A stretch of DNA of 36,133 nt from a virus. Where the stretch lies: positions 1 through 36,133 of the IMG/VR virus record IMGVR_UViG_3300006128_000644; one strand, given 5' to 3'. Under the pieces are notes generated by a model. It saw only the letters and a list, made by a program, of their open reading frames with translations, did not search any database and had not been told where the DNA came from. A program made the translations under genes and the position numbers. Every line of letters starts with the position of its first letter. Position 1 is the stretch's first letter. Positions 387 to 22,957 of this stretch are shown piece by piece.

Positions 387-1481
387 TTAATTACCTGCTT
401 CCACAATGTACTTGCCATACTTCTTGTGGAACTCATCAAAGTTCTTCAATTGACTAGGTTCAATTGGAAGACCATAAGTCTTGAGGGCGATTTTAGCACC
501 CATCACGACCAATTCAGTTTCAAAGTTGTTCATCATATAAGTGACAAAGTTGTTTGCCATTTCATGGAACTTTTTCTTGTCAACCTTCTTGTTTTCAACT
601 GCATCCTTGAGTTCATAGCACATTGAAACAGTAAGAGAGTACATTGCAGAAATTTCCTTAACTGCAAGGTCAGTTACCTTACCACTCAAGATATCGCTGG
701 GTGCGGGCATACGACCTGCAACCTTGCGGTGAGCCATAAACTTAACAGCAAGACCTTCACCAACAGCACCTGCAACAAGATTGTACAGAGTATCAGTATC
801 GGTATCCTCGTCATCAAGCAGGTCACTTACGAAACACCAACTACGGGGAGTAGCGAATGCCTTGCTGGAACTCTTGCTATCAAAATCATACAGGTCCTGC
901 TTGCTGAAAGACAAGTAACCAACCACGTCTTGATGGATGTTCTTGTTAACAGCCCAGTTCTGCCAACTTGCAAAATCGGGACGCATTTCAATGTGAACAA
1001 AACGATTAGCAAGGGGCATCGGCATGCGATAAGTAACACCCTTGTCACTTTCACGATTACCTGCCGCAACGATAACAACATTATCGGGCAACTTGTACTT
1101 ACCAACACGGCGATTCAAAATCAATTGATAGCCTGCAGCCTGAACAGCAGGGGGCGCACTATTCATTTCGTCAAGGAAAAGAACAATGAGGGGATACTGA
1201 CTAGCCAGTTCCTCGTCGGGCAGATCAACTGGGGGAGCCCAGTCCATCTTGTTGATGTCTTTGTTGAAGTATGGAATACCACGAATGTCAGTAGGTTCCA
1301 TTTGCGCCATGCGCAAGTCAATCATAAGACCATTCAGTTCATCGGTAATTTCTGAGACAACCTCAGACTTACCGATACCGGGAGGACCCCAGAGAAAAAC
1401 AGGGCGCTTGACCTTAAACGCCTTAAGAATAGCCTTGCGTGCCTGTACGCTAGTGACTGTAAGATTGTCTGAAACTTGCAT
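387..1481 (-). CDS. MoxR-family AAA+ ATPase
   Basis: The product is 364 residues. It has Walker A GPPGIGKS at about 32-39, Walker B LIVLFLDE at about 98-105, sensor-1-type AAGN at 139-142 and ANRF near 158-161, the arrangement of MoxR/RavA-type AAA+ ATPases. The ~110-residue C-terminal part is helical and carries no VWA or protease motif. MoxR proteins act as chaperones in assembly or activation of partner complexes, and homologues occur in T4-like phages of aquatic bacteria. ATG 1481 has AAGGAC upstream. A sigma-70 promoter at 1510-1538 lies directly ahead, so this gene can be made early. It is followed after 18 nt by a lipoprotein gene. ATPase assignment is firm; the partner is unknown. Confidence 0.92.
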   Translation of the reverse strand: MQVSDNLTVTSVQARKAILKAFKVKRPVFLWGPPGIGKSEVVSEITDELNGLMIDLRMAQMEPTDIRGIPYFNKDINKMDWAPPVDLPDEELASQYPLIVLFLDEMNSAPPAVQAAGYQLILNRRVGKYKLPDNVVIVAAGNRESDKGVTYRMPMPLANRFVHIEMRPDFASWQNWAVNKNIHQDVVGYLSFSKQDLYDFDSKSSSKAFATPRSWCFVSDLLDDEDTDTDTLYNLVAGAVGEGLAVKFMAHRKVAGRMPAPSDILSGKVTDLAVKEISAMYSLTVSMCYELKDAVENKKVDKKKFHEMANNFVTYMMNNFETELVVMGAKIALKTYGLPIEPSQLKNFDEFHKKYGKYIVEAGN

Positions 1482-5146: not shown

Positions 5147-5151
5147 GATAA

Positions 5152-5159
5152 TATTTAGT
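5152..5159 (-). promoter_or_regulatory. T4-type late promoter box ACTAAATA
   Basis: ACTAAATA ends 5 nt before ATG 5146 and follows the terminator at 5176-5201. The CTAAATA form is used by T4-like aquatic phages. Confidence 0.55.
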
Positions 5160-5175
5160 TACGTTAAAGCATCCA

Positions 5176-5201
5176 AAAGAAAAGGCTCTTGCGAGCCTTT
5201 T
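5176..5201 (-). terminator. Rho-independent terminator of the tmRNA gene
   Basis: On the minus strand AAAAGGCTC-GCAA-GAGCCTTTT forms a perfect 9-bp stem with a 4-nt loop (top strand 5180-5201), followed by TCTTTT. Confidence 0.9.
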
Positions 5202-5490
5202 CTGGTTTGTTGGGTTAGAAGGCCTTTCCTGCCCCCACGGGTTACGCGGCTAAGCGTAGATCCTCGTAATAATAATTGTCGTTTGCAATTATAGTTTTTG
5301 CTTCTACGGTCGAGTTCCCCCAACCCTACGGGTTCTGCTTTCCCGTGCTGTCCACTCGTCTACTTGTCCGTCAATCGATCCTGGTCGCCCCCATCATATA
5401 GGCACTAATCAATAATGCGTATATGGTGGAGGCGGGGGGAATCGCACCCCCGTCTTGTCCGTCTTTGGATTCGCTTCGTACAGCAATATC
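5202..5490 (-). ncRNA. ssrA: circularly permuted (two-piece) tmRNA
   Basis: tmRNA frees stalled ribosomes by acting as an alanyl-tRNA and a short mRNA. Here the order is permuted: acceptor piece first (about 5490-5424), then a 31-nt AT-rich spacer (5423-5393), then the coding piece (5392 to about 5202). The acceptor piece has a 5-bp T stem GGGGG/CCCCC with loop TGCGATT (5451-5435), CGCCTCC (5434-5428), discriminator A and encoded CCA (5426-5424). The coding piece begins GGGGGCGACCAGGATCGA (5392). GGGGGCG pairs with CGCCTCC over 7 bp with a G3-U70 wobble, the AlaRS identity element. The tag frame is at 5286-5242. ACAGCA (5351-5346) and TGCTGT (5485-5480) could join the two pieces. The exact outer ends are not fixed by sequence. 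Confidence 0.93.
5242..5286 (-). other. tmRNA tag reading frame (ANDNYYYEDLRLAA)
   Basis: From resume codon GCA (5286-5284) the frame reads ANDNYYYEDLRLAA and ends in TAA (5244-5242). Start AND and end LAA are typical of proteobacterial degradation tags; the Tyr run and internal Arg are unusual. An earlier in-frame GCA lies 15 nt upstream, but GCAAACGAC is the conserved resume context. Confidence 0.9.
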
Positions 5491-5496
5491 TCTTAT

Positions 5497-5652
5497 TTAT
5501 TGCATTACAGTCCACTTGGCATCAAACTTTTTGCCTTTTGCCTTGCGTTTTAAAATCTTAATAAATTCTAACTTACGTAGTTCTTGCTGTTTCTCATCAT
5601 CATGTGTGAAACATGCCTTGTACATCTTGGATACTAATTTACTCTGTTTCAT
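5497..5652 (-). CDS. small basic hypothetical protein (51 aa)
   Basis: ATG 5652 is preceded by AAAGGAAG with good spacing and the frame stays open for 51 codons to TAA 5497-5499. The protein starts MKQSKLVSKMYK, is rich in Lys and helical, and ends AKWTVMQ. I do not recognise it. It lies directly upstream of the tmRNA acceptor piece (about 7-15 nt), so both probably share a transcript. A late-like AATAAATA (about 5678-5685) lies before it. Confidence 0.65.
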   Translation of the reverse strand: MKQSKLVSKMYKACFTHDDEKQQELRKLEFIKILKRKAKGKKFDAKWTVMQ

Positions 5653-5688
5653 AATGTACTTCCTTTCATAAAACCGTAATATTATTTA

Positions 5689-6786
5689 TTATAAAAGAGT
5701 ATTATCTTTATGACAATCCTTCAATAACCAAAACACGTGCCATATCCATCCACATGCTGTTGCACACTCAATGTCATCTAACTTTAGCACTTCTTCAATA
5801 ATATTGCAATACGAATTGGGTGACAATGCAATATCTTTTACCCTTTGTTTGTTTCTGATAAGTTTAGGTCTAATTTGTTTTTTAAGGTTAGTTAATTCAG
5901 AGATAGGTAGTTTGCATAGCCTATCTATATTTTGTACTACCAACTCGGTTCGTTTGTTATTGTTTGTTTCACTATCAAATGAATAGTCAAACAGTTCATC
6001 ATATAACTCAAACCCCATACTTTCTAAAAATTTATGATGTCCTGGACCTGATACACAAATAAATGGTTGACCACACACCAATGCAAAAACAGTTTTTTCA
6101 CTAAAGATTACAGAATTGATTGTAGATTCATTTATAAGTGAAACAAATGATTCATAGTACTCAGTTGGTATGTTACCCCAAGCCTTGTTATTGGCCTCAT
6201 AAGTTCCTAATTGTAATATTTGTGGAGTCCAATATTGCCAAGGATAGTCGTATCCATTGCTATTGTGTACGTTTGCCCATGATATTGCACCTTTATCAAT
6301 TAAATTATATTTTGCTAATATGTCCATCATGTGGCAACGATGTTTGTGCGCACGATTGTTTAATGTAATGTAATGATATTCGTAATCATCAACATAAACA
6401 TTTTTGTTATAGTCTACAACATTTTTAGTATAGTCCAATACTTCTTCAATGTTTTCATCATTGTTTACGGCATAAGAACACATCTGCACATAAGTTTTAA
6501 TAAAGTACCATTCACTCCATTTAATTAATTTTACTAATGGATGAAGTGTTGGTTCATCAATTTCATTAATGATACTTGCGCCGGTAAATATATAAAGGTT
6601 TTGATTACGTTTAACGCAAACTTCTTCGATTGCTCTATCTAATACAGTCGAGTATGCTATATAGTATTGCCATTCGTTTTGTCCAAACAATACAATATAA
6701 TCAAATGTTTCTTTTTCTAATCTATCAAAAAAAGTGGAGACATTCCCTTCGGACTGTCCCCACACTTCCAAACCTAAAATTTTCAT
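5689..6786 (-). CDS. glycosyltransferase-like protein, EKT-type family
   Basis: The product is 365 residues and belongs to a family present four times in this window. Shared blocks are NNRAHKHR at ~143-150 (others NRRYRRHR, GVARPHR), then NLIDKGAISW, then FSEKT near 229 followed by GQPFI, MGFELYDELFDYSFDS, and a helical end. The order of blocks (basic motif, then SEKT/TEKT with a hydrophobic PFI segment) recalls the donor-binding half of GT-B enzymes such as GT10 or exostosin types. This is inference without a structure search. The gene overlaps the preceding exported-protein gene by ATGA (6783-6786) and is therefore translationally coupled. EKT is followed by VFALV instead of the KPI seen in the paralogues. 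Confidence 0.65.
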   Translation of the reverse strand: MKILGLEVWGQSEGNVSTFFDRLEKETFDYIVLFGQNEWQYYIAYSTVLDRAIEEVCVKRNQNLYIFTGASIINEIDEPTLHPLVKLIKWSEWYFIKTYVQMCSYAVNNDENIEEVLDYTKNVVDYNKNVYVDDYEYHYITLNNRAHKHRCHMMDILAKYNLIDKGAISWANVHNSNGYDYPWQYWTPQILQLGTYEANNKAWGNIPTEYYESFVSLINESTINSVIFSEKTVFALVCGQPFICVSGPGHHKFLESMGFELYDELFDYSFDSETNNNKRTELVVQNIDRLCKLPISELTNLKKQIRPKLIRNKQRVKDIALSPNSYCNIIEEVLKLDDIECATACGWIWHVFWLLKDCHKDNTLL

Positions 6787-8893: not shown

Positions 8894-10045
8894 TTAATAT
8901 TTTTCCAAAATCTCGTAGACTTCGGGCCATTCTTTAGCAAAAGTAATTGGGTTAATTTCATTATCAGTTTTCTTTATATATTCTTTAAATATATCCAAAT
9001 GTTGTAAATCCATTTCATCCATTGTGTCTACCAATGACTGTCGTGTGTTGATTACAAAGTCTTTGGTTCGCTGATTAATGTAGTCACCGTGCTTTTCCAT
9101 CAATAAATCAAACTCTTGTATTGCTAACTCTTTGATTTCTTTTGGAAAAGTGTATATAGAAAACTGTTTTGGTCCCAACAGTAAAGACGGGAAACTAAAA
9201 TTATTAACTGGGTTGGGATCGACACTAAACAACCAATCAAATGTTTCTACTAATGAGAACGCACTTTGGATACAATATGTCATGTGTATCCCCAAGTTAC
9301 TTTCAGGATTTAAGTTCTTATGTAAATTTTTATAATTTTCGCTAGTAAGTTCCCATTTGGCATTGCGTCTGATGTATTCAAATTTATTGCCTGTTGCCTC
9401 TAAACTAACTAGCCAAGAGGTTCTACGGTTAAGTAATTTTTGATATACAGGAAGTGTTTCAATGTTTTCAATTGAAAGATTAGTAACTACACCTCCGTGT
9501 ATTCTTCTTGGCATCAAATCAATCAAGTCAACGTTTTCTTTTAATAACAGTGGCTCACCACCTAAAAAGTTAACAACTTGCATATCACTATTCTCACGCA
9601 AGAATTCTAATACATCTTCTTGCCAAGATGTTTCAGATACTTTATAGTTCTTACCTTCCCATTGTGCGAATGCACTACTCCATTCGCTGTTACAATATCC
9701 ACAACGTAAATGACAAGTGTTTCTCCAACGAACATCTAACTGTCTTGCTACAAATTTTGTTGTATCAAATTTGGTAAAGTCTTGTGTAAAACTTTCACGC
9801 AAACTTCTACCAGACTTTTGTTCAGACTCCATACAGTTGGTACAATAATCACTGTGACCTTTTGTAAGTATGTCATCTTGCACACGCTTAACAGGACCGT
9901 CAATAAGTTCCTGTAGTGTGTTTTTATTTAAATTACCAATTGAGCCTTTTTGTCCTGCACAACAAAATCTAAAGTCTCCGTCAGGATTAATAAACACACC
10001 TTCCCATGGCGCGCTACATTTAAAGTCTGGAATGATTTCAATCAT
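8894..10045 (-). CDS. radical SAM protein with N-terminal twitch-like Cys region
   Basis: The product is 383 residues. Cys10, Cys28-Cys29 and C68-x2-C71 form an N-terminal auxiliary-cluster (twitch/SPASM-like) region placed before the core. The radical SAM motif C111-x3-C115-x2-C118 (CHLRCGYC) follows, with NFLGGEPLL as the GGE SAM-binding motif. These enzymes cleave SAM to a 5'-deoxyadenosyl radical and modify peptides or small molecules. It shares layout with the genes at 32036, 33569 and 34801 but is more distant. It overlaps the giant repeat gene by ATGA (10042-10045), so the two are translated together, and precedes the methyltransferase by 31 nt. Confidence 0.88.
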   Translation of the reverse strand: MIEIIPDFKCSAPWEGVFINPDGDFRFCCAGQKGSIGNLNKNTLQELIDGPVKRVQDDILTKGHSDYCTNCMESEQKSGRSLRESFTQDFTKFDTTKFVARQLDVRWRNTCHLRCGYCNSEWSSAFAQWEGKNYKVSETSWQEDVLEFLRENSDMQVVNFLGGEPLLLKENVDLIDLMPRRIHGGVVTNLSIENIETLPVYQKLLNRRTSWLVSLEATGNKFEYIRRNAKWELTSENYKNLHKNLNPESNLGIHMTYCIQSAFSLVETFDWLFSVDPNPVNNFSFPSLLLGPKQFSIYTFPKEIKELAIQEFDLLMEKHGDYINQRTKDFVINTRQSLVDTMDEMDLQHLDIFKEYIKKTDNEINPITFAKEWPEVYEILEKY

Positions 10046-13000
10046 GACATGTCAAACATGTTGCGTAACCATGCCCACTCATAACTGAGTTTGATCTTGT
10101 CAAAGTCTCCGTTTACTTCATCATAGTATTCATCTGCATCAACTGCACCCTTGATACTATATTGTGCAAAGTCACCTTCTGCTTTGTTCAACCAAGCATG
10201 TAAACGTTCACGTGCGATATCACTATCTTCTGCACGTAGTTTTAATACTTCACGGAACGCAGTACGCCATGTGCTAAATGCATCTGTGTTATATACTGCT
10301 GTACCAGACAACAATTGCACAACTTCATGCGGGTCGTCTAATGTAAAGTCAAGACCTTTACCCTCGTTAGCAAGTGTAAGTTTCTTGTTATATGCAATCA
10401 TGGCTTGGTGACCATAAACTAGACCATTCACAGGATTCTTTGCTTGGAAAATATAATGCTTTGGAATTTGCATTCTATCTGGTTGCCAGTTCCAATCAAA
10501 CTTTGCTGATACTTTTAGTTTAGCAAAGACTGTGAATGCCCAAGGTGTTTCACTGGCTTCAACTGCGGCATGATATGCGGCAGCACGACCATTAACACCA
10601 TCAACTCTTACTACACGGTTTTTAATACCCTTAGTCACCTTCAGTAAATGTTCGTAGTTCTCGTCAGCGCCGGTTTCACCATTGCTTAGGAAGACTATAT
10701 CCAGTGGCTTGCTCATAGCAAGTTTAGTTGATTTCTTAATATACGGATAATCGTATAATTCGGTTTTTACGTGGTCTTTTACGTCACGTGGCACAATGAT
10801 ACGTGATGCACCTGTGCTTGTAACCATGATTGTCTTAGTTTCAGGGCTCCACAAGTTCATTGGTTCAGTATCAATGACATCAATATTCTTGTTATCTTCT
10901 GTCATCAATACAGCATATGGGTATCCTTCAATACGTTTTGCCGCATCAACAAGTGTATCATCACTTGTTACAATGATTGGCTCAGGCATTCTAGGTACAC
11001 GCAATGACGCATTGTAGTTAACCTTGTTGTATTCTTCCAGTGAATCAATCTCTTTTATTAATTCTTTTGCTTTGTTAACATCTAAGAAGAATGTGTCACC
11101 AAACTTTTGTTTACCACTAGGGAACACATGCAACTGTTCACGTGCAAATGGATCGCAAACATAACTAAAGTCAAAGTTTGTGTAATCGCAAATACTACTG
11201 CACAACCAAATATAGTTTTCACGTTTGTCTGGCTGTTTACTCAATACAGTTCTAATTGTGTTCAAGTAACTTGTATCATACTTAACAACACTAACAGATT
11301 TGTCACCTGCCTTTTGTTGTAACAATTCAATAACATTATTGATATTGCCATGATCAATCAATACAATGTCATATAAACATTGTGTGGCTACTGCTCTGTT
11401 AGTCTTAACAAAGTTTAAGTTACTCAAGTGTTCAATGATCTTAATGTATTTGGTATCATTGCTAAACGTTTCACGATTGACCATGAATGTGGTTCCCCAA
11501 TGACTCCATTGAGTACCAAATACATGAACCATTTTCATCTGCCAAGGGTTAGGATAGTATTCAAAGTCAAAGTTACTGTAATCTAACTCACTATTCAATA
11601 TCCATAATATGGGAGTGGTTGCACGATTAGTACAACGATTGATTGTGTCTACCCAACTGTTTAGATAACGTGTCTTTTGAATGTGCGGGAACTTGGCTTT
11701 GAGTAATTCAAAACGTGCTGATGATTCTTTATTGCCTTTGTCAACGTAGAACATGTCTGGCTTTTTAAACAGTTTAGCCAATGACTTATCATCAATTGCA
11801 GTCTCCTCAATAAATTTGAAATCTGTTTTGCCTTTCAAATAAGACTTTGCATTAACAAAGTATGTCTGCGTAACTTCACTATCAGGTGAACCGAACACGT
11901 TAACGTAATCAGATTCCCAAGCAATGTTGATAACTTCAGGTCTCCATGCAAAATCAAATGTAGAATAGTCAATGTTTTTTTGCATCGCCCAAAAGATTTC
12001 GTCAGGATGTTTCTTTACTAAATCTTCAAGTGTTGTATCAATAAAGTATTGACCAATCTTTACTTCAACTAATGTTGCAGGATCAACTTCAATACGATCT
12101 AAGTATACAATCTCTCCGTTATTACCTGGTGTAAGATATCTTGGGCCATCTTTCTCATCTAAAATTGTACCAAACTGATAGATATAAGGTGGCGCTAGTG
12201 GATGAGGTACCCATGAAAAATCAAATGTTGATACATCTACATTTTCAGGAATCAACCAATTCTTTTTACTAGGCACTAACGGTGCTTTAATGTCTTCAAT
12301 ATATTTTACTTCAGTTGCACCTGGAGTTTTGTATTTAGGACCTCCTCGATTTTGCCACACTGTTGCAAACTCATAGATATAAGGTGGTGAATGTGGGTCT
12401 GGATGCCAACTAAAGTCAAACTTAGATATATCAACGTTGTCGGGAATATCCCACAAACTCATATCAGGAGTTAACTTAGCAAATACATTATTAATATATT
12501 TTTTATCTGTTGAATTAATTACACGATACTCAAGTGTAGGTTCACGCTCTGCACTATGCCATTCGTTACCAAATACATAGGTGTATGCAGGTTCAGTATC
12601 ATCTGGATGCCAACTATAATCAAACTCTTTAATGTTAAAGCCAGGCAGCACAACAAAGTTATCTTTGTTTGGCAAACGCTTTGCTTTAATAATACGTGTG
12701 TCTACGTATTTTACTGGGCTATCAGCAGTGGTGCCTGGCGTAATATATTTTGGTCCACCTGTCTTTTGCCATTGAGTACCAAACTGATAAATGAAAGGAT
12801 CATCTTCTGCATATGGATGCCAACTAAAGTCAAATGAACTTACGTCAATCTGTGTAGCATCATATTCCCAGTTTTTTGTACTAGGAAGAACTCTTGCTGT
12901 TTGACATTCTTCATATTTCTTTATAGTTGCATTAGGCACCACATACACGGGTCCGCCTGTCAATGCCCACTGCGTGGGGAATTGATACGTGTAAGGTGGT

Positions 13001-16000
13001 GCAGTATCGTCAGGGTGCCAACTAAAATCAAAACCATCAACATCAATATTGTCTGGTACTACCCAGTTTTTCATATTAGGTAGTTTCTTTGCTTTGGGTT
13101 CAGAAACATACTTGACTTCAGTTGCACCGTATACTTTGTATTGTGGTCCACCTGTTTTTTGCCATTGAGTTGCAAACTCATAGATATAAGGAGGATCCTT
13201 AGGATGTGGATGCCAACTAAAATCAAATTCAGTTGTATCTATACCTTTAGGTATAATCCAGTTATCAGTATTAGGTGCTAACTTAGCAACAACATCTGAC
13301 ACATATTTGAATTTCTTAGCACCTTCAACGCAATACTCTACTGTAGGCATTTCTTCTGCAGGATATTGTGTATTACCGAATTGGTAAATAAAAGGATCAT
13401 CTGTATCATCTGGATGCCAACTAAAATCAAAACTTGACATATCAATATCATATATCATATTCCAGTGGTTCATTGATGGCAAACGTTTTGCTTTAATAAT
13501 ACGTGTGTCAATATATTTTACAGGACTGTTTTTATGACAGCCTGGTGTAATATATTTTGGACCACCAGTCTTTTGCCATTGTGTACCAAAGATATAGATA
13601 TAAGGTTGATCTTCTACATAGGGATGCCAACTAAAATCAAAACTGTTTTCATCAATTAAATTACTATCGTATTGCCAATTCGTTTTATCAGGCAATGCAC
13701 GTGCAGTTTGATCTTCTACATATTTGATTTCTGTTGCCCCAGGTACAGTATATACAGGACCACCACTTAATGCCCACTGAGTTGCAAAGTTATAAATGTA
13801 TGGTGGACTTGTCGCATCTGGATGCCAACTAAAATCAAAATCAGTAATATCAATGTTAGTAGGTACAGTCCAGTTTTCTTCGGAAGGCAATCTTTTAACT
13901 TTGCATGTGTCAATATACTTTGTTTCAGTTGCACCTTCTACAATATATTTAGGACCGCCAGTCTTCTGCCACTGAGTTGCAAACTCATAGATATAGGGTG
14001 GGTCTTTGGGATTAGGCTTCCAACTAAAATCAAATCCTGTAGTATCAACGTTGTCGGGGATTTCCCAGTTAGTTCTATCTTGCCCTAGTGTAGCAATGAT
14101 ATCACTAACATACTTAACTTGTTTTGCCTTAGGAACACTATACTCTACTGTTGGCATAATCTCTGCTGGATACAAGTTATTACCAAACTGATAAATGTAA
14201 GGTTCTTCTGTTTCGTCAGGATGCCAACTATAATCAAAATCAATTATAACTAAGTTATCAAGTACAGCCCAGTTCTTTTGATTAGGTAAACGCTTTGCTT
14301 TTAATACACGTGTGTCTACATAACTAACTGGACTGTTCTTATGTACTCCAGGTGTAATATATCTTGGTCCACCTGTTTTTTGCCACTGTGTACCAAACTG
14401 ATAGATATAGGGTTCGTCTTCAGCATACGGATGCCAACTAAAATCAAAACTGTTTTCGTCAATCAACGTTGGATCAAAATCCCAATTATCTTTATTAGGA
14501 ATTGCCTTTGCCGATTGATCATCTACGTATTTTACTTCTGTTGCATTAGGAACAGTATATGTTGGTCCACCGCTTAATGCCCATTGCGTAGGGAAGTTAT
14601 AGATATAAGGAGGACTTGTTGCATCTGGATGCCAACTAAAGTCAAAGTTGCTAACATCAACATTCTTAGGAATAGTCCAGTTAGTCATATCAACTAACTT
14701 TTTAGCCTTTTGAAAGTCCATGTACTTTGTTTCAGTTGCACCCTCTACTACATAGCGAGGTCCACCTGTCTTTTGCCACTGCGTAGCAAATTCATAAATA
14801 TAAGGAGGATCATTAGGATTAGGTTCCCAACTAAAATCAAAGCCTGTTGTGTCAACATTGTCAGGAATAATCCAATTATCCATACAGAATTTACGAATAG
14901 CACGTTCATCCATGTATTGATATTCTGTTGCACCTTCAACTACATATTGAATACTAATCTTATCTTCTGCTTTGTTCCATTGATTGCCCCATGCATAGAT
15001 ATAAGGAGGCGCAGTTGGATTAGGTACCCAACTATAATCAATGCCATCGCTGTTTTCTAAAAATTCAAAGTTTTGCTTTTGTGGTAATAACTTTGTGTTA
15101 CTTGGCATGTGCTTTTCATCTGTAGCACCTTCCATCTTATAGATAAGTGTAGGCATGATAGTACTATCATACTGGTCATTGCCAAACACATAATTTAAAT
15201 TAGGTTCACGTGGATCAGGTCTCCATGTAAAATCAAATGTAGATTTATCTATAGGTAAAATGATATCCCACTTGTCCCATTGTGGTAGCACATCTATAGT
15301 ATCACCCATGTATTTTATTTCTGTAGCACCATCACACACATACTGCAACGTAGGTGTTATTTCAGCAGGTTCGTATTTATTGCCCCATGTATAAATGTAA
15401 GCCGGCTCACGTGGGTCGGGTCTCCATGTAAAATCAAATTTTGTTTTATCTACTTCTTTTAAAAGCGCCCACTTGTCCCATTCAGGTAATACTTCTAATT
15501 TTTCAGGCATGTACTTTTTATCAGTTGCGCCTGGTACATGATATTCAACAGTGGGTTTTAATGTACCATCAATATGTTTGTTACCCCATACGTAAATGTA
15601 TGGCGGATCCAATGGATTAGGTCTCCATGTAAAGTCAAATTTATTAGGATCAGGCTGTTGATAGAATACCCATTTATCTCTTTCAATCGTAAGTTCAACT
15701 GTTGTAGCCATGTATTTGACTTCAGTTGCATTAGGTGTATGATATTCTAATACAGGTTTTAATTGTACTGGTGCAAACTTTGAACCCCAGCGATAGATAT
15801 AGGGAGGATCAGTTGGGTCTGGATGCCAACTAAAATCAAATTTGTATTCGTCTATATTATCTAATAATACCCAGTTATCATTCTTTTCGTTTTTTCTAAC
15901 AACAGGGTCTACATCACTGCGATATATGATAACTTCACCTGGTTCTTTGGGGCATAACCATGTGCCACTGTCTTTTTGATGTTGGCTGGGCCAGACATTG

Positions 16001-16203
16001 TTATGTTCTTCTGCCCACACTTCTTCATCAGGTAAGAATTCAAAATCAAAATCCCAGTCGAATCCTCGATAGTCACAGAATTCATTGATGATCCAAAAGT
16101 GTTCGGTTGTACACTTTTCTCTTGCATCTTCTAATGATTCTGCAAATCTTTCTCTGGGGTGAACGTTTGGTTTATTTCCGTAATAGAATACATCTCTAAG
16201 CAT
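10042..16203 (-). CDS. giant FDFSWHP-repeat protein (2053 aa)
   Basis: About 22 units of ~60-75 residues follow the pattern FDFSWHPxxxxPPYIYxF(A/G)TQW, then GGPxYxxxGATExKY, then a Lys-rich link to NWxxPxNID. More divergent copies lie near the N-terminus (FDFEFLPDEE) and in the last 500 residues (FDFEYYP, FDFSYVCDP, FDWNWQP). Four successive unit types form a super-repeat of 266-269 residues. The C-terminal ~280 residues (DIVFLSNGETGADENY, GRAAAYHAAVEASETPWAFTVF) resemble a GT-A glycosyltransferase core without a clear DxD. No signal peptide or membrane segment is seen. The N-terminal ATG follows CTTAAATA by 4 nt. Function unknown; a scaffold or sugar-binding enzyme is possible. Confidence 0.85.
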   Translation of the reverse strand: MLRDVFYYGNKPNVHPRERFAESLEDAREKCTTEHFWIINEFCDYRGFDWDFDFEFLPDEEVWAEEHNNVWPSQHQKDSGTWLCPKEPGEVIIYRSDVDPVVRKNEKNDNWVLLDNIDEYKFDFSWHPDPTDPPYIYRWGSKFAPVQLKPVLEYHTPNATEVKYMATTVELTIERDKWVFYQQPDPNKFDFTWRPNPLDPPYIYVWGNKHIDGTLKPTVEYHVPGATDKKYMPEKLEVLPEWDKWALLKEVDKTKFDFTWRPDPREPAYIYTWGNKYEPAEITPTLQYVCDGATEIKYMGDTIDVLPQWDKWDIILPIDKSTFDFTWRPDPREPNLNYVFGNDQYDSTIMPTLIYKMEGATDEKHMPSNTKLLPQKQNFEFLENSDGIDYSWVPNPTAPPYIYAWGNQWNKAEDKISIQYVVEGATEYQYMDERAIRKFCMDNWIIPDNVDTTGFDFSWEPNPNDPPYIYEFATQWQKTGGPRYVVEGATETKYMDFQKAKKLVDMTNWTIPKNVDVSNFDFSWHPDATSPPYIYNFPTQWALSGGPTYTVPNATEVKYVDDQSAKAIPNKDNWDFDPTLIDENSFDFSWHPYAEDEPYIYQFGTQWQKTGGPRYITPGVHKNSPVSYVDTRVLKAKRLPNQKNWAVLDNLVIIDFDYSWHPDETEEPYIYQFGNNLYPAEIMPTVEYSVPKAKQVKYVSDIIATLGQDRTNWEIPDNVDTTGFDFSWKPNPKDPPYIYEFATQWQKTGGPKYIVEGATETKYIDTCKVKRLPSEENWTVPTNIDITDFDFSWHPDATSPPYIYNFATQWALSGGPVYTVPGATEIKYVEDQTARALPDKTNWQYDSNLIDENSFDFSWHPYVEDQPYIYIFGTQWQKTGGPKYITPGCHKNSPVKYIDTRIIKAKRLPSMNHWNMIYDIDMSSFDFSWHPDDTDDPFIYQFGNTQYPAEEMPTVEYCVEGAKKFKYVSDVVAKLAPNTDNWIIPKGIDTTEFDFSWHPHPKDPPYIYEFATQWQKTGGPQYKVYGATEVKYVSEPKAKKLPNMKNWVVPDNIDVDGFDFSWHPDDTAPPYTYQFPTQWALTGGPVYVVPNATIKKYEECQTARVLPSTKNWEYDATQIDVSSFDFSWHPYAEDDPFIYQFGTQWQKTGGPKYITPGTTADSPVKYVDTRIIKAKRLPNKDNFVVLPGFNIKEFDYSWHPDDTEPAYTYVFGNEWHSAEREPTLEYRVINSTDKKYINNVFAKLTPDMSLWDIPDNVDISKFDFSWHPDPHSPPYIYEFATVWQNRGGPKYKTPGATEVKYIEDIKAPLVPSKKNWLIPENVDVSTFDFSWVPHPLAPPYIYQFGTILDEKDGPRYLTPGNNGEIVYLDRIEVDPATLVEVKIGQYFIDTTLEDLVKKHPDEIFWAMQKNIDYSTFDFAWRPEVINIAWESDYVNVFGSPDSEVTQTYFVNAKSYLKGKTDFKFIEETAIDDKSLAKLFKKPDMFYVDKGNKESSARFELLKAKFPHIQKTRYLNSWVDTINRCTNRATTPILWILNSELDYSNFDFEYYPNPWQMKMVHVFGTQWSHWGTTFMVNRETFSNDTKYIKIIEHLSNLNFVKTNRAVATQCLYDIVLIDHGNINNVIELLQQKAGDKSVSVVKYDTSYLNTIRTVLSKQPDKRENYIWLCSSICDYTNFDFSYVCDPFAREQLHVFPSGKQKFGDTFFLDVNKAKELIKEIDSLEEYNKVNYNASLRVPRMPEPIIVTSDDTLVDAAKRIEGYPYAVLMTEDNKNIDVIDTEPMNLWSPETKTIMVTSTGASRIIVPRDVKDHVKTELYDYPYIKKSTKLAMSKPLDIVFLSNGETGADENYEHLLKVTKGIKNRVVRVDGVNGRAAAYHAAVEASETPWAFTVFAKLKVSAKFDWNWQPDRMQIPKHYIFQAKNPVNGLVYGHQAMIAYNKKLTLANEGKGLDFTLDDPHEVVQLLSGTAVYNTDAFSTWRTAFREVLKLRAEDSDIARERLHAWLNKAEGDFAQYSIKGAVDADEYYDEVNGDFDKIKLSYEWAWLRNMFDMS
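12415..14845 (-). repeat. 807-bp coding super-repeat, three copies plus partial
   Basis: The conserved block complementary to TTTGATTTTAGTTGG (encoding FDFSW) recurs throughout. The unit followed by EFAT occurs with its CCAACT at 14827, 14020, 13213 and 12415, giving periods of 807, 807 and 798 bp. Each period contains the ordered types EFAT, (N/Q)F(A/P)T-QWAL, FGT-QWQK-YITPG and FGN-PTxEY. Confidence 0.85.
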
Positions 16204-16207: not shown

Positions 16208-16215
16208 TATTTAAG
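16208..16215 (-). promoter_or_regulatory. late-promoter-like box CTTAAATA
   Basis: CTTAAATA ends 4 nt before ATG 16203 and includes the stop codon of the carbamoyltransferase gene. It differs from the consensus at two positions, so it is weaker evidence than the others; no Shine-Dalgarno is present. Confidence 0.35.
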
Positions 16216-17695
16216 AGTAAACTTTTACGCCATAAAGTTTTTCAAATCTATCTGCATCACTACGGTCATTGACCATTGGTTCGCCACGGATGTTTAGTGA
16301 TGTATTAAGCAATATTGGACATCCTGTGGCTTGATACCAAAGTTCTAAGAGAATTCTGATTCCACTTCCATCTTTAGGAACAGTCTGGACACGACTAGTG
16401 CCGTCAGCGTGAACGATAGCAGGAAATAGGTCAGGATGCCTACAAGTAGCGATGACTTGCATATACCTAGAGTTGTCCCAGCCAACAGGCATATCAAAGT
16501 AATCATGAACCAACTCCTCCAAAATGAGAGGCGCAAATGGTCTGAATTTTTGTCTACGTTTGATTTCATTTACTTTATCCTTAATTTCATCCCCACGGGG
16601 ATCCGCTAATAAACTTCTGTTACCTAAAGCACGTGGCCCAAACTCTGCACGACCACTTGCTATACCTACTATCTTACTATGTTTTAATTCTTTATACAAG
16701 TTTAAAATAGGATAACGACCAGGTATTTCGTGTCCTAAAAATGCATTCTTCCAATTTAACTTTTTACCATAGCCTAATGCTGCCGCACCTAAACTATTAC
16801 CTGCATCACCTGGATTAGGCATGATCCAAATTTTGCTAAAATGATTACCTAACAATCTATTTGCTAAACAGTTTAATGCAACACCGCCACCATATACTAG
16901 ATTACTGCTAGTACCCAATGATCTAGCCTTACGCATAATGATTTCAATTAGTTCTTCAGTAAGAAGTTGAGTTGATGCGGCGATATCCATATCGTTGGCA
17001 TTCTCTAAGAATTTTTCTCTTACTCCGGTGTGCAAGTTTTGTGCAAAATCTAAGTTATCTTTGTCTGACAAAAACTCACGACTAATTTCTTCACTGTGCA
17101 ATGCTTTGCCATATGCAACCATACCCATGAGAATGTATTCTTCATCTAATGGTTTCAACCCCACACGTTTTGTCATTGCTGAGTACATCAATCCAATGCT
17201 GTTAGGATATTGTTTACTCCATAGTTTTTCATAACGTGCCATACCATTTTTATCATAGTATGCATTATAAATGCTGATAGTGTCGAGTTCCCCAATAGCG
17301 TCAATAACTACTACAGTTGCATTGTCAAAGGGGCTAGTTTGGAATCCTGCTGCCGCATGTGTTAAGTGATGACTATGTGTTTTAATTGAACCACTACGAT
17401 CATTAAATTTATCAATGATATTTTCACCTAATAGTTTTTTCATATTAAGCGGTCCAACACTTTGTCCTGCTCTAAGTTGACGTATAGCCTTTACCCAGGG
17501 CTTTTCATAGTAGTGAACTTCATATAGGTCTCTAACATGTTTTTTAGCATCATGCACTAAATCAACACAAAGATTAGCATCATGTTTGATTTTACTGTAT
17601 CTTTCGCTGTGACCAGCAAATAGGATATCACCACTGTCATTAATGACAGTTATACCTGCATCATGAAAGCCGCAACTGATTCCTAAGTATTTCAT
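16211..17695 (-). CDS. NodU/CmcH/TobZ-type O-carbamoyltransferase
   Basis: The start is set at ATG 17695 because the family begins MKYLGISCGFHDAG; the longer frame at 17722 adds nine residues that overlap the upstream small gene. The product is 494 residues. It has the N-terminal Kae1/YrdC-like carbamoyl-adenylate domain with HHLTH (~109-113, metal site), GGGVALNC, NPGDAG, and the C-terminal FGPRALGNRS and RPFAP blocks. The family transfers carbamoyl from carbamoyl phosphate through carbamoyl-AMP to a sugar hydroxyl, as in Nod factor and tobramycin. The acceptor here is probably a sugar, given the neighbours. A perfect TATAAATA ends 5 nt before the ATG; no Shine-Dalgarno is seen. Confidence 0.93.
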   Translation of the reverse strand: MKYLGISCGFHDAGITVINDSGDILFAGHSERYSKIKHDANLCVDLVHDAKKHVRDLYEVHYYEKPWVKAIRQLRAGQSVGPLNMKKLLGENIIDKFNDRSGSIKTHSHHLTHAAAGFQTSPFDNATVVVIDAIGELDTISIYNAYYDKNGMARYEKLWSKQYPNSIGLMYSAMTKRVGLKPLDEEYILMGMVAYGKALHSEEISREFLSDKDNLDFAQNLHTGVREKFLENANDMDIAASTQLLTEELIEIIMRKARSLGTSSNLVYGGGVALNCLANRLLGNHFSKIWIMPNPGDAGNSLGAAALGYGKKLNWKNAFLGHEIPGRYPILNLYKELKHSKIVGIASGRAEFGPRALGNRSLLADPRGDEIKDKVNEIKRRQKFRPFAPLILEELVHDYFDMPVGWDNSRYMQVIATCRHPDLFPAIVHADGTSRVQTVPKDGSGIRILLELWYQATGCPILLNTSLNIRGEPMVNDRSDADRFEKLYGVKVYS

Positions 17696-17699
17696 GTGC

Positions 17700-17804
17700 T
17701 TATTTATAGATGAAAGGGTCACGCTTTTTTAATTCTTTGATACGTTTTCTATATTGTATCTCACGTTTGATTTTATTGTAAATTCTTTTTACCCAATTAA
17801 ACAT
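17700..17804 (-). CDS. small basic protein ending DPFIYK (34 aa)
   Basis: ATG 17804 overlaps the end of the SGNH gene (stop at 17797) and has AAAGGA eight to nine nt upstream. The 34-residue product starts MFNWVKRIYNKIKRE, is very rich in Lys/Arg, forms one likely amphipathic helix, and ends KKRDPFIYK. Short proteins of this shape occur in T4-like aquatic phages by my recollection. The last two sense codons and stop (TAT AAA TAA) create the late promoter of the next gene. Confidence 0.7.
   Translation of the reverse strand: MFNWVKRIYNKIKREIQYRKRIKELKKRDPFIYK
17701..17708 (-). promoter_or_regulatory. T4-type late promoter TATAAATA (carbamoyltransferase)
   Basis: A perfect TATAAATA ends 5 nt before ATG 17695. 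By the T4 geometry transcription would begin at the A of this ATG. The box lies inside the codons Tyr-Lys-stop of the 34-residue gene. Confidence 0.75.
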
Positions 17805-18552
17805 TGTTGTTTTCCTTTAAAAAATTATATAACTCTTCTGCGTAGAGTTGGTGGGGTACTTCATCGTGATGCCAGTATTTAGCCTTTGGATTAGTATAGC
17901 CCAAATTCTTGTACTTCCAAAAGAATGCATCATCTTTTTCTGAATCTAACTTATAATAGTTATTTCTGTCAATAAGTTTTGTTATTTGTGCTACATGAGG
18001 AGAATCTTTTGTAAACATATGCATAGCATTACACATTAGATATTTTACATTTTTGGATTTTAAAAAGTATTGAATCTGTAGCACGTAGTTTGCGCTCCAC
18101 ATTTCTAACATAGGCTCATTCTCAGCCATGAAACGATGGTATTTGGGAAACAATTCTTTTTCTTCGGGGTCACCGCCGTCCCAACCAAATGTGATTCTAA
18201 AATATGTATTGATTGTGTTGTCAAACCAATCGGCAGCCTTACTACTTACATTGTAAATAAAGTTTCTCGTAGATGGAACTTCCAATCTAACGCTTTCTGT
18301 CCATGAAGTCAATACAAAAACATCCATAGAGTTTTCATTATAGTTTTGATCAAACCAGTTTAATATGCTTCTAGCAATACAACTATTTGATGCACCATTG
18401 GTTGCAATATTAATAGGTCTATAACCCATCTTGTCTGCAAGTCGTGCACCAAAACTATGCTGTCTATTATAAACGCTGTCTTCTTGCCCGTTTATTTCTG
18501 ATCCAGCGGCATGGCTACATCCTGCAATTAACATTATTTTTTCTTTGTTCAT
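17797..18552 (-). CDS. SGNH/GDSL-like hydrolase
   Basis: The product is 251 residues and begins MLIAGCSHAAG (GCS at ~11-13 replacing GDS), has ATNGASNSCIARS (the Gly and Asn blocks) and FVLTSWTE, and ends with KYWHHDEVPHQLYAEELY in place of the usual DxxH block. It belongs with the two other SGNH proteins here (22935, 26783). SGNH enzymes act as esterases or as O-acyl transferases/deacylases on sugars. The catalytic Asp-His spacing is not canonical, so activity is uncertain. Its start overlaps the stop of the B12-radical SAM gene by ATGA. Confidence 0.75.
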   Translation of the reverse strand: MNKEKIMLIAGCSHAAGSEINGQEDSVYNRQHSFGARLADKMGYRPINIATNGASNSCIARSILNWFDQNYNENSMDVFVLTSWTESVRLEVPSTRNFIYNVSSKAADWFDNTINTYFRITFGWDGGDPEEKELFPKYHRFMAENEPMLEMWSANYVLQIQYFLKSKNVKYLMCNAMHMFTKDSPHVAQITKLIDRNNYYKLDSEKDDAFFWKYKNLGYTNPKAKYWHHDEVPHQLYAEELYNFLKENNNV

Positions 18553-20864
18553 GGTAATAAATGCTTTGGTCTTGTTCGTTTGATGCTGTCTAAAGTAATT
18601 ACGGTTGTTGCTGGCACAACTGATTTAACTTCAGTGCCCTCAAACGTTTCTTTTTCTGGCATAGACAAGTCTTTACTCTTGTCACGTTTCTGTTCTTTCT
18701 CTTCTAGTGTAACTACATAGTCCATGTAGTTACTCCAATCACCTGTGCCTTGCCACTTTAATTCAAAACTAAAATCAATAGTAGCATTAAGTACTGCTTC
18801 TTCATTTAATAAGTCAGCAAAGTCTTGTCCACTACGACCTTCTTCTTCACTCCAAGTTGCTTTTGCTAACTTTCTTGCACGTTTAACTGTGTTACTTTGC
18901 AAGCGTGAATAATCTTGTGCATAGAATGGGCCTTTACGACCTTCTGGTGGTGGTTTACGATCATCCCAAGGATTATCAATTTGTTCAAACTTAATATCAA
19001 AGTCTGCTTCCCATTGACCTTCATCAGTGATCTTAAACTTGTACTTTGCATAATACATTTCAGGACCAAACTGTTGGCCAAACTCTTTGATATCTAAGTC
19101 AGGGTGAAATAAGATTTCTGCTTCATAGCCACCACGTGCGCGCCATAGATTTCTAAAGAAAGGCCACATTTCATTTACTAATGCATTTGCAAATGGATTG
19201 TTTGAGTCAACAGGTGGAATGATATTGTAATCAAATTCTTCATAATGCATTTCTTTTTGTTTTGCAGGATTATTCAATCTGATGTTGTAATGACGCTGTG
19301 CAAGTGCATGACGTACAGGATATGTCACAGGAACTTCTGTGCAACCATTAAACATATCTAGCCAAATGTGAATGCACTTAACACGTGTCATAACGTGTGT
19401 GCCACCCATTTTTAAATCATTGCTGATCCAGTGACCTTGATATTTGTGCCACGATACATTGTATGCGTGTGGATTCTGTCCTACAATTGTTTCAGGACCT
19501 AATCCATATCCCACACCAAGACCCATGTTATTGATATTGTTGTTACGCATACGCCACATGAATGTCATTGTATCGCTATAGTCTTGATACTCTTCAGTGG
19601 GGAATCCAACGATCCAGTTAGTTGCGGCCCAGATGCCTACTTTTTTACAGTCAATAAAGTTCTGTTCCATTTCTTGAATGGTAACACCTTTGTGCATATC
19701 GTCTAATACTTTTTGTGATCCTGATTCACAACCAAAGTTAAACATAATGCATCCACCATCTGCTAAGTCTTGCAGATAGTCTAATGTCATACGACCATCG
19801 CAACGTGCATAACCAGTCCAACGAACCTTTAAGTATTTGGCTTTAAGTCCTAATGCAAATGCACGTAGTTCTTTAATATTACCATTGATCAAACTATCAA
19901 TGAACCAAATGATGTCAGTGCCTTTGTTGTAGTATAACCATTCAACTTCGGTAATTAAGTCAACACTTTGACGTTGACGATATTTCCAAAAGTGTGTTTC
20001 TTCACAGAATGTACACTTTGCTGTACATCCACGACTAATCTCACTGTTAACTCCATTAGGTACTTCGTACAAACTAAAGTCAATACTCTCATAGTCTGGC
20101 ATAGGAAGACCATTGATATTGATACGTTGATCTTCAGGCTGTGTTAATACTCTGGCTGCACCACTGTGATCTGATCCTGCTTCGATTTCATCAAGCATTA
20201 CTAATAAATTCTGTTCGCCTTCACCTACAATAACATAATCATAATAGTCTTCAATCTTAAACCAACTCTTGTGTACATTAGGCCCACCAACTGCAATCTT
20301 AATATGAGGTGCTCTACGTTTAATTTCTTGGCACATCCATTTGCTAGGCTCTTCGCTAATGTAATAGATACTGAATCCAACAACACTTGGGTTCATTTCA
20401 ATAATCTTGTCTACTGCTTCGCTAAGAATAGGTTCTAACACAGGATGAATATCATTCATGTACGTGTCACCTAACCAGTGCCATGAACTTGCAGGGTCCC
20501 AAAGTCTAAATGGTAATTTCTTGTTTGGTTGCCAATCATCACGATAAGCATTATATGCTTTAACATTCAAGTCCATGATGTGCGTTTCGTATCCCGCACT
20601 TTTTGCCACACCACTAAGTCTAGCAAGACTAAATGGGGGCATATAGGGACTCCATTCAGGGCATAGTACAAGCACAAGTTTAGTGTTTCTTGTCTTGTAA
20701 TCTACATATACCGGAGTAAGATTCTTTTGATTTACTACTACTGATTTGGCATAAGGGGCAATGGCTTCCATCATGCTACGATGGCGTGCATCTGCTATAT
20801 CTTCTGTTGGTCTTTCTTTTGGCTTTAACTCGTCTACAGCCAAACTACGTAAATTAAAATCCAA
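18549..20864 (-). CDS. B12-binding radical SAM enzyme (771 aa)
   Basis: A TTG start at 20864 is supported by AGGAG six nt upstream; no better ATG is near. Residues ~60-230 form a cobalamin-binding Rossmann domain (LVLVLCPEW, GYETHIMDLN, VVGFSIYYIS, IAVGGPNV, VIVGEGEQNL). The radical SAM motif C280-x3-C284-x2-C287 (CTAKCTFC) follows. The ~250 C-terminal residues are rich in Trp and acidic residues and contain no domain I know. The family methylates or rearranges unactivated carbons. A TCTAAATA box lies 20 nt upstream with a normal leader. It is likely part of the sugar-modification block, but the substrate is unknown. Confidence 0.88.
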   Translation of the reverse strand: MDFNLRSLAVDELKPKERPTEDIADARHRSMMEAIAPYAKSVVVNQKNLTPVYVDYKTRNTKLVLVLCPEWSPYMPPFSLARLSGVAKSAGYETHIMDLNVKAYNAYRDDWQPNKKLPFRLWDPASSWHWLGDTYMNDIHPVLEPILSEAVDKIIEMNPSVVGFSIYYISEEPSKWMCQEIKRRAPHIKIAVGGPNVHKSWFKIEDYYDYVIVGEGEQNLLVMLDEIEAGSDHSGAARVLTQPEDQRININGLPMPDYESIDFSLYEVPNGVNSEISRGCTAKCTFCEETHFWKYRQRQSVDLITEVEWLYYNKGTDIIWFIDSLINGNIKELRAFALGLKAKYLKVRWTGYARCDGRMTLDYLQDLADGGCIMFNFGCESGSQKVLDDMHKGVTIQEMEQNFIDCKKVGIWAATNWIVGFPTEEYQDYSDTMTFMWRMRNNNINNMGLGVGYGLGPETIVGQNPHAYNVSWHKYQGHWISNDLKMGGTHVMTRVKCIHIWLDMFNGCTEVPVTYPVRHALAQRHYNIRLNNPAKQKEMHYEEFDYNIIPPVDSNNPFANALVNEMWPFFRNLWRARGGYEAEILFHPDLDIKEFGQQFGPEMYYAKYKFKITDEGQWEADFDIKFEQIDNPWDDRKPPPEGRKGPFYAQDYSRLQSNTVKRARKLAKATWSEEEGRSGQDFADLLNEEAVLNATIDFSFELKWQGTGDWSNYMDYVVTLEEKEQKRDKSKDLSMPEKETFEGTEVKSVVPATTVITLDSIKRTRPKHLLP

Positions 20865-20884
20865 TGATCGCTCCTAGTCTTATC

Positions 20885-20892
20885 TATTTAGA
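20885..20892 (-). promoter_or_regulatory. late promoter box TCTAAATA
   Basis: TCTAAATA ends 20 nt before the TTG start 20864; AGGAG lies between them. Confidence 0.5.
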
Positions 20893-20914
20893 GCAGTAAA
20901 CAGAGGCGTATAAT

Positions 20915-22786
20915 TTAAGTCATAGGTTTAAAGTGAAGGATTACTCCGTTTTGCATAGACTTATCCTTCATTGGATACATTCCTACCAATTTTAAATTAT
21001 TGACTTTAGCCATATGTTCCATTTTTTCATAATAATGATTTTCAATCAAGTAAACATCGGCATCAGCAGTTAAATGTTTTGATATATTATTGAAGAATTC
21101 GCCGTGAATCTTAAAATCAGGATCAATAACAAGTCTGGCAGTATTTTCTAAAATAAAGTCAAACATTTCACTATTTTTGTTGAGCATATCTGCTTTAAAA
21201 TCTTCGTAAGTAATATCACTATGGGGAGGGTTACTGATAACTAAATCCCATTTTTCGCTATCAGGGATATCAGCAATATTAGGAGTCAAATATGTTGTAA
21301 CATAATTTGATAGATTATTGTTCTTTGCTGTTTGTTTGCAGTTTTCAATGGCTGGTTCAAACATATCTGAAAATACAATATAGTTACAGATTCCCAAACC
21401 CAGCATTTCGTAACCTAATACGCCAAAGCCAGCACACCATTCAAAGCCTCTGTTATAGACATACTTTCCTGTCTTTTTAATAACTTCAATTAAGTCATCT
21501 CTAAAGTATAATCCACCACCGTCAATTTTTTTAGGGTGCTTAATCATTATACCACTTTTTAATCTTATGGTATCGATATGGTCTAATGATTCTCTGTATT
21601 GTTTTTCTTTAGTTTGTCTTGTATTACCGTAATGTACTGTTTGTTTTGATGTTCCGTTGTATTGACGCCATGGATCAATAACTACCGCAGTATTTGGCAA
21701 TTGCAAATCAGTAACATATTTGTCCCAATAACCAATCATATAAACATCTGTGGTATCTGTTTTGAGATCGGTGTCCCCTGTGTGAACATCATAGTAATTT
21801 ACGTTACCACCTAACTCAGTGACATAATGTCCAACTAACAAACTACTGCTACCGTTAGTATAATTTACGTTAGGCTTATATGCTTTGCCAATGATAGTTA
21901 CATTGTTACCATATTTTAAACACTTTTGTGCAAGTCTTTTTGCCTGCACTTCTCTAGCAGTCATAATGCTATCAAACAAATCATAACCTAAATTTAATTT
22001 ATCTGCTAGATAACGTAATGCAATGTTATCACGTGGATGACATGCACCACCATCGCCCATACCTGCTTTCATATATGCAGGGCCCATGATGCGATATGTT
22101 GACTTTGCTAATGCGTTAGTAACAACGTCAACATTAATATTGCCACTAGTCTCTGCAACGTCTTGAATCATATTTACTAATGCAAGTTTTGTACTAATAA
22201 AGGTGTTATAGAAAATCTTGATTGCTTCGGCTTCGTCCCAAGTACCAACTTCAATGCGTGGATTGTTTTGCATTAATGGTGCATAAAAGTCAATCAACTC
22301 ACTTGCATCACCTGTTATTGATCCGTCTTCAGTTCCAATGATAATCATCTCAGGATTAACAAAGTCATCAGCAACAGTGCCCATAGCAATCAAGTATGGG
22401 TTATAAATGAAACGTGCATTAGTAATGTAATTGATAAAACGACTTCGAACAGTGCCCGGTAGCACAGTACTAATCAATACAACAAGTTGATCTTTACTAA
22501 CATATTTGTTGATTTCGTTCAATGTGTTAGTAACAATACTATAATCAAAATCTGTATTGGGTAAATGACTTGATGGTGTTTCTCCACCATATCTAGGGTC
22601 ATGTGGGGTTGGTACAGCAATAAAAATGATATCTCTATCTTGTACTGCCTCTTGTATGCTACTTTTCATTGGAAAACTAGCATTTACGTGTACGCTATCG
22701 AACCCAACAACATCGTATTGTTGAGCCATTACAGTGGCGCAGGGTTCGCCTAATTTTCCTACCCCGATCATTGCAACCTTTTTCAT
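20915..22786 (-). CDS. sugar-nucleotide 6-dehydrogenase fused to a methyltransferase
   Basis: The product is 623 residues. Residues 1-385 are a UDP-glucose/GDP-mannose dehydrogenase: NAD-binding GVGKLG (8-13), ISTVLPGT (105-112), Lys190 and Asn194 (KIFYN), catalytic Cys249 in GDGGACHPRD, and IGKAYKPN (299-306) of the sugar-binding domain. Residues ~420-623 are a class I methyltransferase with WCAGFGVLGYE (450-460), VFSDMFE and motif IV SNPPH (518-522), the NPPY-like motif of RsmC/HemK-type enzymes. The dehydrogenase oxidises C6 of a nucleotide sugar; the methylated target is unknown. Both halves keep their key residues. ATG 22786 lies 5 nt after TATAAATA without a Shine-Dalgarno. Confidence 0.88.
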   Translation of the reverse strand: MKKVAMIGVGKLGEPCATVMAQQYDVVGFDSVHVNASFPMKSSIQEAVQDRDIIFIAVPTPHDPRYGGETPSSHLPNTDFDYSIVTNTLNEINKYVSKDQLVVLISTVLPGTVRSRFINYITNARFIYNPYLIAMGTVADDFVNPEMIIIGTEDGSITGDASELIDFYAPLMQNNPRIEVGTWDEAEAIKIFYNTFISTKLALVNMIQDVAETSGNINVDVVTNALAKSTYRIMGPAYMKAGMGDGGACHPRDNIALRYLADKLNLGYDLFDSIMTAREVQAKRLAQKCLKYGNNVTIIGKAYKPNVNYTNGSSSLLVGHYVTELGGNVNYYDVHTGDTDLKTDTTDVYMIGYWDKYVTDLQLPNTAVVIDPWRQYNGTSKQTVHYGNTRQTKEKQYRESLDHIDTIRLKSGIMIKHPKKIDGGGLYFRDDLIEVIKKTGKYVYNRGFEWCAGFGVLGYEMLGLGICNYIVFSDMFEPAIENCKQTAKNNNLSNYVTTYLTPNIADIPDSEKWDLVISNPPHSDITYEDFKADMLNKNSEMFDFILENTARLVIDPDFKIHGEFFNNISKHLTADADVYLIENHYYEKMEHMAKVNNLKLVGMYPMKDKSMQNGVILHFKPMT

Positions 22787-22791
22787 GTGAA

Positions 22792-22799
22792 TATTTATA
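22792..22799 (-). promoter_or_regulatory. T4-type late promoter TATAAATA (dehydrogenase fusion)
   Basis: A perfect TATAAATA ends 5 nt before ATG 22786; no Shine-Dalgarno is present. Confidence 0.75.
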
Positions 22800-22810
22800 G
22801 GTAATTGATT

Positions 22811-22957
22811 CTAGTCAGAAATAATATGTGTTGTATGTTGTGATAACAGTATTTTATTATAGTGTAACACAGGTGTCAACTCTTTTATCCATTGTCTGAT
22901 TTCTGGTTTGGTCATTTTTAGTAATCTTTCCACTTCATCCATAATAGCCAAAAGTCT
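22811..22957 (-). pseudogene. C-terminal relic of an EKT-type glycosyltransferase-like gene
   Basis: The frame from about 22957 to TAG 22811 reads RLLAIMDEVERLLKM and continues as a helical stretch with W and a YN near its end. This matches the end of the 409-residue protein (RIYAIVDEVERLCKM, then EWLNNV, then DYNYRLL). The similarity continues upstream of ATG 22942 into a frame that overlaps the last codons of the SGNH gene (stop 22935), so it is not simply a 43-codon gene. It looks like what remains of a deleted paralogue. It could still be translated as 43 residues from ATG 22942. Confidence 0.6.
22851..22879 (-). promoter_or_regulatory. possible sigma-70 promoter
   Basis: TTGACA (22874-22879), 17-nt spacer, TAAAAT (22851-22856). 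It lies inside the relic frame, so its use as a promoter is uncertain. Confidence 0.4.

Follow-up and report, generated by a model that had tools for sequence, protein, structure and literature searches.

The window analysed here, an IMG/VR virus record of 36,133 nucleotides, carries a circularly permuted tmRNA gene that is complete on the minus strand of positions 5485-5242. Very probably the phage-encoded permuted tmRNA serves to rescue ribosomes during infection. The same gene recurs at one place in related phage genomes, some of which hold an open reading frame within its intervening sequence.

Structure of the tmRNA gene

A cmscan search of the window, the Rfam/Infernal check suggested in the original prediction, returned RF04321 (tmRNA_permuted) at 112.6 bits (E = 2.1e-21; gathering score 47) and RF01849 (alpha_tmRNA) at 58.7 bits (gathering score 50), the latter over model positions 40-275 of 355. 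The covariance-model match runs in permuted order and ARAGORN agrees with it, predicting a permuted tmRNA with the tag ANDNYYYEDLRLAA at 5151-5517 on the minus strand; the two-piece gene proposed from the letters was thus confirmed. The folding z-score of the tmRNA was -5.1, and none of 100 shuffled sequences folded equally well.

All parts of the gene lie on the minus strand. The acceptor piece (5424-5485, RF04321 alignment, with a putative 5′ end) stands upstream of the coding piece, as predicted, and comprises the P2 strand TGCTGT (5485-5480), the T arm (5451-5435, from the same alignment), the acceptor strand CGCCTCC (5434-5428), A73 (5427) and an encoded CCA (5426-5424). It is followed by an intervening sequence of 31 nt (5393-5423), which ends in TGAT and contains no protein ORF. 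The coding piece, placed by the RF04321 alignment and the sequence, is given here from G1 to the tag stop (5242-5392), a provisional 3′ end. Its acceptor strand GGGGGCG (5392-5386) pairs with CGCCTCC at seven of seven positions including G3-U70, so that the predicted 7-bp pairing of the ends with its wobble holds. Its P2 strand ACAGCA (5351-5346) pairs with TGCTGT; P2 is short and interrupted in the window, and the RF04321 alignment marks non-standard pairs. The tag frame (5242-5286; ARAGORN and sequence) opens at the resume codon (5286-5284) and reads ANDNYYYEDLRLAA up to the stop codon at 5244-5242, in line with the frame and stop described earlier.

Pairing in both stems was compared across viral tmRNAs. 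All ten distinct viral acceptor stems paired fully, compared with seven of 90 swapped combinations, a test that is partly circular because pairing, together with G3 and U70, had served to pick the places. P2 pairing played no part in choosing the tmRNA places. Each gene's own P2 partners formed a run of at least six Watson-Crick pairs in 63 of 118 viral rows (55 fell below six), and partners swapped between tag classes reached this length in 11%.

Phage origin and recurrence of the gene

The window encodes an AAA ATPase (phrog_1297; 387-1481, minus strand), which by PHROGs and synteny serves as a marker of the phage group, together with a SAM decarboxylase, a hydroxylase, a carbamoyltransferase and several radical-SAM and sugar genes. 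The best 80 viral loci (of at least 80), on contigs of up to 364 kb, have counterparts of the ATPase at 80-89% identity, and one viral contig of 25 kb shares the tmRNA and has a hydroxylase of 100% identity. These matches, and the T4-type capsid gene gp23 in relatives, bear out that the tmRNA is phage-borne. The T4-type gene context that had also been proposed was not recovered within the window, which is a fragment: it has no gp23, and no PHROGs family named as structural was matched among the 28 ORFs scanned. The gene gp23 scored above cut-off in nine of 29 records (28 of the 50 related records described below, plus the window), all nine being relatives of the window. The contigs of up to 364 kb and these nine records place the window in a group of large phages, some of which have T4-type capsids. 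No SmpB match was found in the 29 records, most of which are fragments, and the tmRNA is therefore assumed to use host SmpB.

Elsewhere in the window, a run of genes on one strand (16211-36102), including ones for radical-SAM, B12-binding, carbamoyltransferase and nucleotide-sugar functions, resembles a surface-modification island. A 2053-aa ORF (10042-16203) showed no family match above cut-off.

The ATPase and the hydroxylase led to 99 distinct related records, of which 50 were examined. RF04321 scored above cut-off in 35 of the 50, and the count rises to 37 with two records (G028 and G029, loci L013 and L014) whose sub-cut-off matches are permuted tmRNAs with a 382-nt intervening sequence; a one-piece tmRNA, to which low-scoring hit pairs in these two records had pointed, was rejected on that ground. 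Among 81 ATPase loci (the best 80 matches and the window), ARAGORN made no tmRNA call in 56, and in all 25 loci with both genes the tmRNA lies upstream of the ATPase on the same strand, 0.6-7.8 kb away. A custom scanner detected the tmRNA in 32 of the 81. The remaining 13 of the 50 records gave no RF04321 match. Four of the 13 span at least 8 kb upstream of the ATPase with a tmRNA found by neither Rfam nor the scanner; therefore the gene seems, from these loci, to be dispensable for the phage group. Loci L010, L022, L026, L030 and L032 had no tmRNA at the Rfam gathering score or by the scanner; at that score Rfam also missed the tmRNA known in L013. Five phage isolates were searched with RF04321: Melnitz, CcrRogue and Phosso scored above cut-off, and PA5oct and Atu_ph07 gave no match. 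The permuted tmRNA of the Caulobacter phage CcrRogue lies at 102546-102864, and the record has no tmRNA feature annotated within the stretch examined.

Alleles of the gene can apparently be exchanged between close relatives, as judged from one pair of loci. L042 (tmRNA at 5744-6061) and L044 (7125-7506) are close relatives with unrelated tmRNAs at the same place, with the tags VAANDNNVDLALAA and ANDNNAYEGLALAA and the T loops GGCGGTA and TTCGACT, respectively. They share 95-96% identity across 10.3 kb downstream; in the 2.1 kb nearest the tmRNA the identity is 91%, in the 0.7 kb upstream 88%, and further up 71-81%. In L044 the similarity ends at the tmRNA start and resumes near the tmRNA 3′ end; in L042 the exchanged stretch is 1.4 kb long and includes the hydroxylase.

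Flanking elements

An 11-pair hairpin (5178-5203) is the probable transcript end. The strong terminator that had been predicted here is borne out only in part: the hairpin at 5203-5178 is present, but its terminator score arises on the plus strand only, and 0.8 terminator-type sites were expected by chance in the 1.4 kb scanned. Directly downstream lies the Asp/Asn beta-hydroxylase-like gene (PF05118; 4667-5146, minus strand), which in relatives is a frequent downstream neighbour of the tmRNA; at 15 of 19 loci (at least 53% identity) the tag stop precedes it by 63-697 nt. Directly upstream of the tmRNA, a 51-aa ORF (5497-5652, minus strand) was rejected as a conserved upstream gene, being absent upstream of the related tmRNAs listed.

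Immediately before the acceptor piece, the box AATAAATA (5494-5501, minus strand) has one mismatch to its marine equivalent TATAAATA and no good -35 box, and sits 1 to 4 bases farther from the acceptor piece than TATAAATA does. An exact TATAAATA stands before the tmRNA in 30 of 30 marine rows (0.5 expected), and in all 30 it is at the same time a -10 box, preceded by TTGACA or TTGACT (6.5 expected). Because of this double role, a single T4 late promoter was rejected and early expression is indistinguishable from late. A sigma-70-like promoter, TTGTCA-N17-TATAAT (11/12; 5688-5716, minus strand), is a pattern match only, in a region with six such sites against 5.8 expected. In the window's own group, 18 of 31 rows, of which the window is not one, have a sigma-70-like site immediately ahead of the tmRNA (5.8 expected); the promoter boxes of the window are weaker than those of its relatives.

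Tag, T loop and phylogenetic position

The tyrosine-rich tag had been proposed to mark a protease preference different from that of the host tag. There is little to support this: 10 unique bacterial rows have the tag ANDNYAEARLAA, which begins and ends like the window tag, and tags differ widely among related phages. Judged by these comparisons, the tag is ordinary in kind and its tyrosines show no sign of mattering.

The T loop of the window, TGCGATT, is of a TGC type found in 13 of 61 viral rows, one of 103 bacterial rows presumed to be alphaproteobacterial and none of five presumed to be betaproteobacterial, whereas 94 of the 103 presumed alphaproteobacterial rows have GGCGGTA or GGCAGTA; the class labels of the bacterial rows are presumptive throughout. 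In quick trees of viral and presumed proteobacterial rows, on about 140 columns, the nearest rows to the window are viral and lie outside the presumed alphaproteobacterial rows. One branch (SH-aLRT 90) split 60 viral from 92 bacterial rows. With 61 viral rows, the 103 presumed alphaproteobacterial rows and five further rows, the viruses need three changes on the tree, and a clean virus clade was rejected. The five rows came from phylum and order searches around G494, presumably a betaproteobacterium to judge by its tag, and include the doubtful L343.

Protein genes nested in the intervening sequences of related phages

The custom scanner, which demanded a tag ending in AA, collected 119 unique viral permuted tmRNAs, 70 of them with an intervening sequence of at least 100 nt. 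A nested ORF, defined as one of 35 codons or more with its start at most 56 nt after the CCA and its end between -30 and +60 nt of the coding piece, was present in 60 of the 70, against 4.4 expected after shuffling the interior. This count is biased upward, since 45 of the 119 tmRNAs came from searches for the motif TCCACCATAAGGAAGTTT or for one nested protein. Without those loci, nested ORFs were found in 18 of 25 long intervening sequences (1.8 expected), or 18 of all 74 rows, and in four of 37 rows of the window's own group. The nested form is confined to relatives, the 31 nt of the window holding no protein ORF. By the same scanner, 89 bacterial permuted tmRNAs included three with at least 100 nt of intervening sequence and none with a nested ORF.

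Of the 60 nested ORFs, 37 begin 11 or 12 nt past the CCA and have their stop one base short of the coding piece; seven extend 42 nt into the coding piece, as in phage Melnitz. Whole nested genes occur at L013:6550-7131, in L367, L395, L399, L322 and L297, and elsewhere. Simple clustering gave 34 families of nested proteins. One protein is a thioredoxin (Pfam, 4e-21) and one a DUF6356 protein (3e-12); 17 others scanned had no Pfam match above cut-off. The pN/pS ratio was 0.23 over the widest pairs of nine families, and two families were near 0.9 on few differences. Relatives of nested proteins are also encoded elsewhere than in intervening sequences. L269 has, immediately upstream of its tmRNA, a copy with 72% identity to the nested protein of L271 and L297. 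In L459, a locus in which the scanner found no tmRNA, a 962-codon open frame includes a 67% relative of the 122-aa nested protein of L013. The predicted structure of the 122-aa protein (mean pLDDT 67.7) had no Foldseek match at E ≤ 0.001; the matches shown, with a best E of 0.009, were mostly acetyltransferases, so that an acetyltransferase-like fold is only a lead.

The ends of the intervening sequence pair over at least six bases in 98 of 112 viral rows of at least 20 nt (53 of 67 without the biased loci), compared with 7% of shuffles; by this gapless measure the window has only four paired bases. TGAT stands at the end of the intervening sequence in 100 of 119 viral rows (56 of 74 unbiased), the window included, and in eight of 89 bacterial rows. 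For 48 of 59 nested cases, the predicted fold pairs a Shine-Dalgarno-like stretch with the final 25 nt ahead of the coding piece.

We lean towards the reading that the window gene belongs to a set of viral permuted tmRNAs in which protein genes dock into the intervening sequence. In the relatives, a Shine-Dalgarno sequence directly after the CCA would serve an ORF that fills the intervening sequence, typically with a TGA stop one base before the coding piece, and the paired ends would mask this Shine-Dalgarno sequence. Processing of one transcript would then yield the tmRNA and a short mRNA ending right past its stop codon, near to being a non-stop substrate of its own tmRNA, and folding and processing could switch the nested protein on. 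The window, with 31 nt and the same TGAT end, would be the empty form.

Function and alternative explanations

Established tmRNA biology suggests how the RNA may act. From a minus-strand transcript of the acceptor piece, the coding piece and the 31 nt between them, the intervening sequence would be excised by host tRNA-processing enzymes, leaving two pieces held together by the acceptor stem and P2. Host AlaRS would charge the molecule through G3-U70, and host SmpB would deliver it to ribosomes stalled on broken mRNA, where the nascent chain would receive the tag. The phage may benefit in that ribosomes stay free while mRNA is degraded.

Alternatively, the RNA may be a decoy that sequesters SmpB and blocks host rescue instead of performing it. 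Mycobacteriophage DS6A has little beyond a tRNA-like domain, and a similar molecule inhibits tmRNA, according to the available text of PMC4131195. We consider a decoy improbable here, because the window and its relatives keep a tag frame, a resume codon and a tag ending in AA, all needless for a decoy; among scanner rows the AA ending is no independent test, being required by the scanner.

Still less probable is a host gene acquired by chance or by imprecise excision, with no role for the phage. The Melnitz paper (PMC9004378, available text) points to ssrA as an integration site and to its fragments in prophages, and the tmRNA is missing from some relatives of the window. Against such an origin, the gene is whole and lies on the same side of the ATPase in all 25 loci, its P2 partners change together, and relatives have promoter boxes before it. 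The exact tag opening TATAATTGCAAACGACAATTA was also found in 58 viral contigs and only two stretches of the genome collection. One of the two, L141 (PALK01000009.1), is a Rickettsiales-binned contig with a phage-type tmRNA; it has sequence in common with the IMG/VR record of L290 and is therefore probably a virus contig in a bacterial bin.

That the window is a bacterial contig with the host's own tmRNA, as its many sugar and radical-SAM genes and its lack of a capsid gene might suggest, has a very low probability given the ATPase matches, the gp23 of nine related records and the 25-kb viral contig described above.

Relation to known tmRNAs

Phage permuted tmRNAs are already known. The available text of PMC9004378 describes the two-piece ssrA of phage Melnitz, with early expression proposed, and 53 two-piece structures found by ARAGORN, of which 50 belong to marine or aquatic phages. 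Melnitz (MZ577097), a 141-kb marine phage, resembles the window in its phage-borne permuted tmRNA, its encoded CCA, a promoter box right upstream and a long tag (ANDNYVPVDYALAA). It differs in its T loop (GGCAGTA) and in an intervening sequence of 142 nt, in which a 54-aa ORF continues into the coding piece. Alphaproteobacterial permuted tmRNAs (RF01849) share with the window the gene order, the GGATCGA box, the resume region and an AND-type tag, but not the T loop. As far as the text of PMC4131195 is available, phages with ssrA include Bacillus phage G, mycobacteriophage Bxz1 and others, which like the window encode their own tmRNA. The Caulobacter phage CcrRogue and the Sinorhizobium phage Phosso resemble the window in their RF04321 matches. 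The tmRNAs of Bacillus phage G, Bxz1 and the others listed with them are known as one-piece forms. A tmRNA in a Sinorhizobium jumbo phage appears, with no form given, in the available part of PMC11242549. The tmRNA database paper counts 79 phage sequences, and its available text notes a single tRNA gene and a single repeat within intervening sequences and names no protein gene there. Among the titles and abstracts searched, mostly from outside subscription journals, none described protein genes nested in tmRNA intervening sequences. By sequence, the window gene is a sound additional phage permuted tmRNA, and the novelty lies in the nested genes of its relatives.

A ribosome-rescue RNA thus recurs at one place in a group of large phages. 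The nested genes would be a new way of packing a gene inside an RNA gene and perhaps couple expression to RNA processing, an idea that is testable because the isolate Melnitz has an ORF in its intervening sequence.
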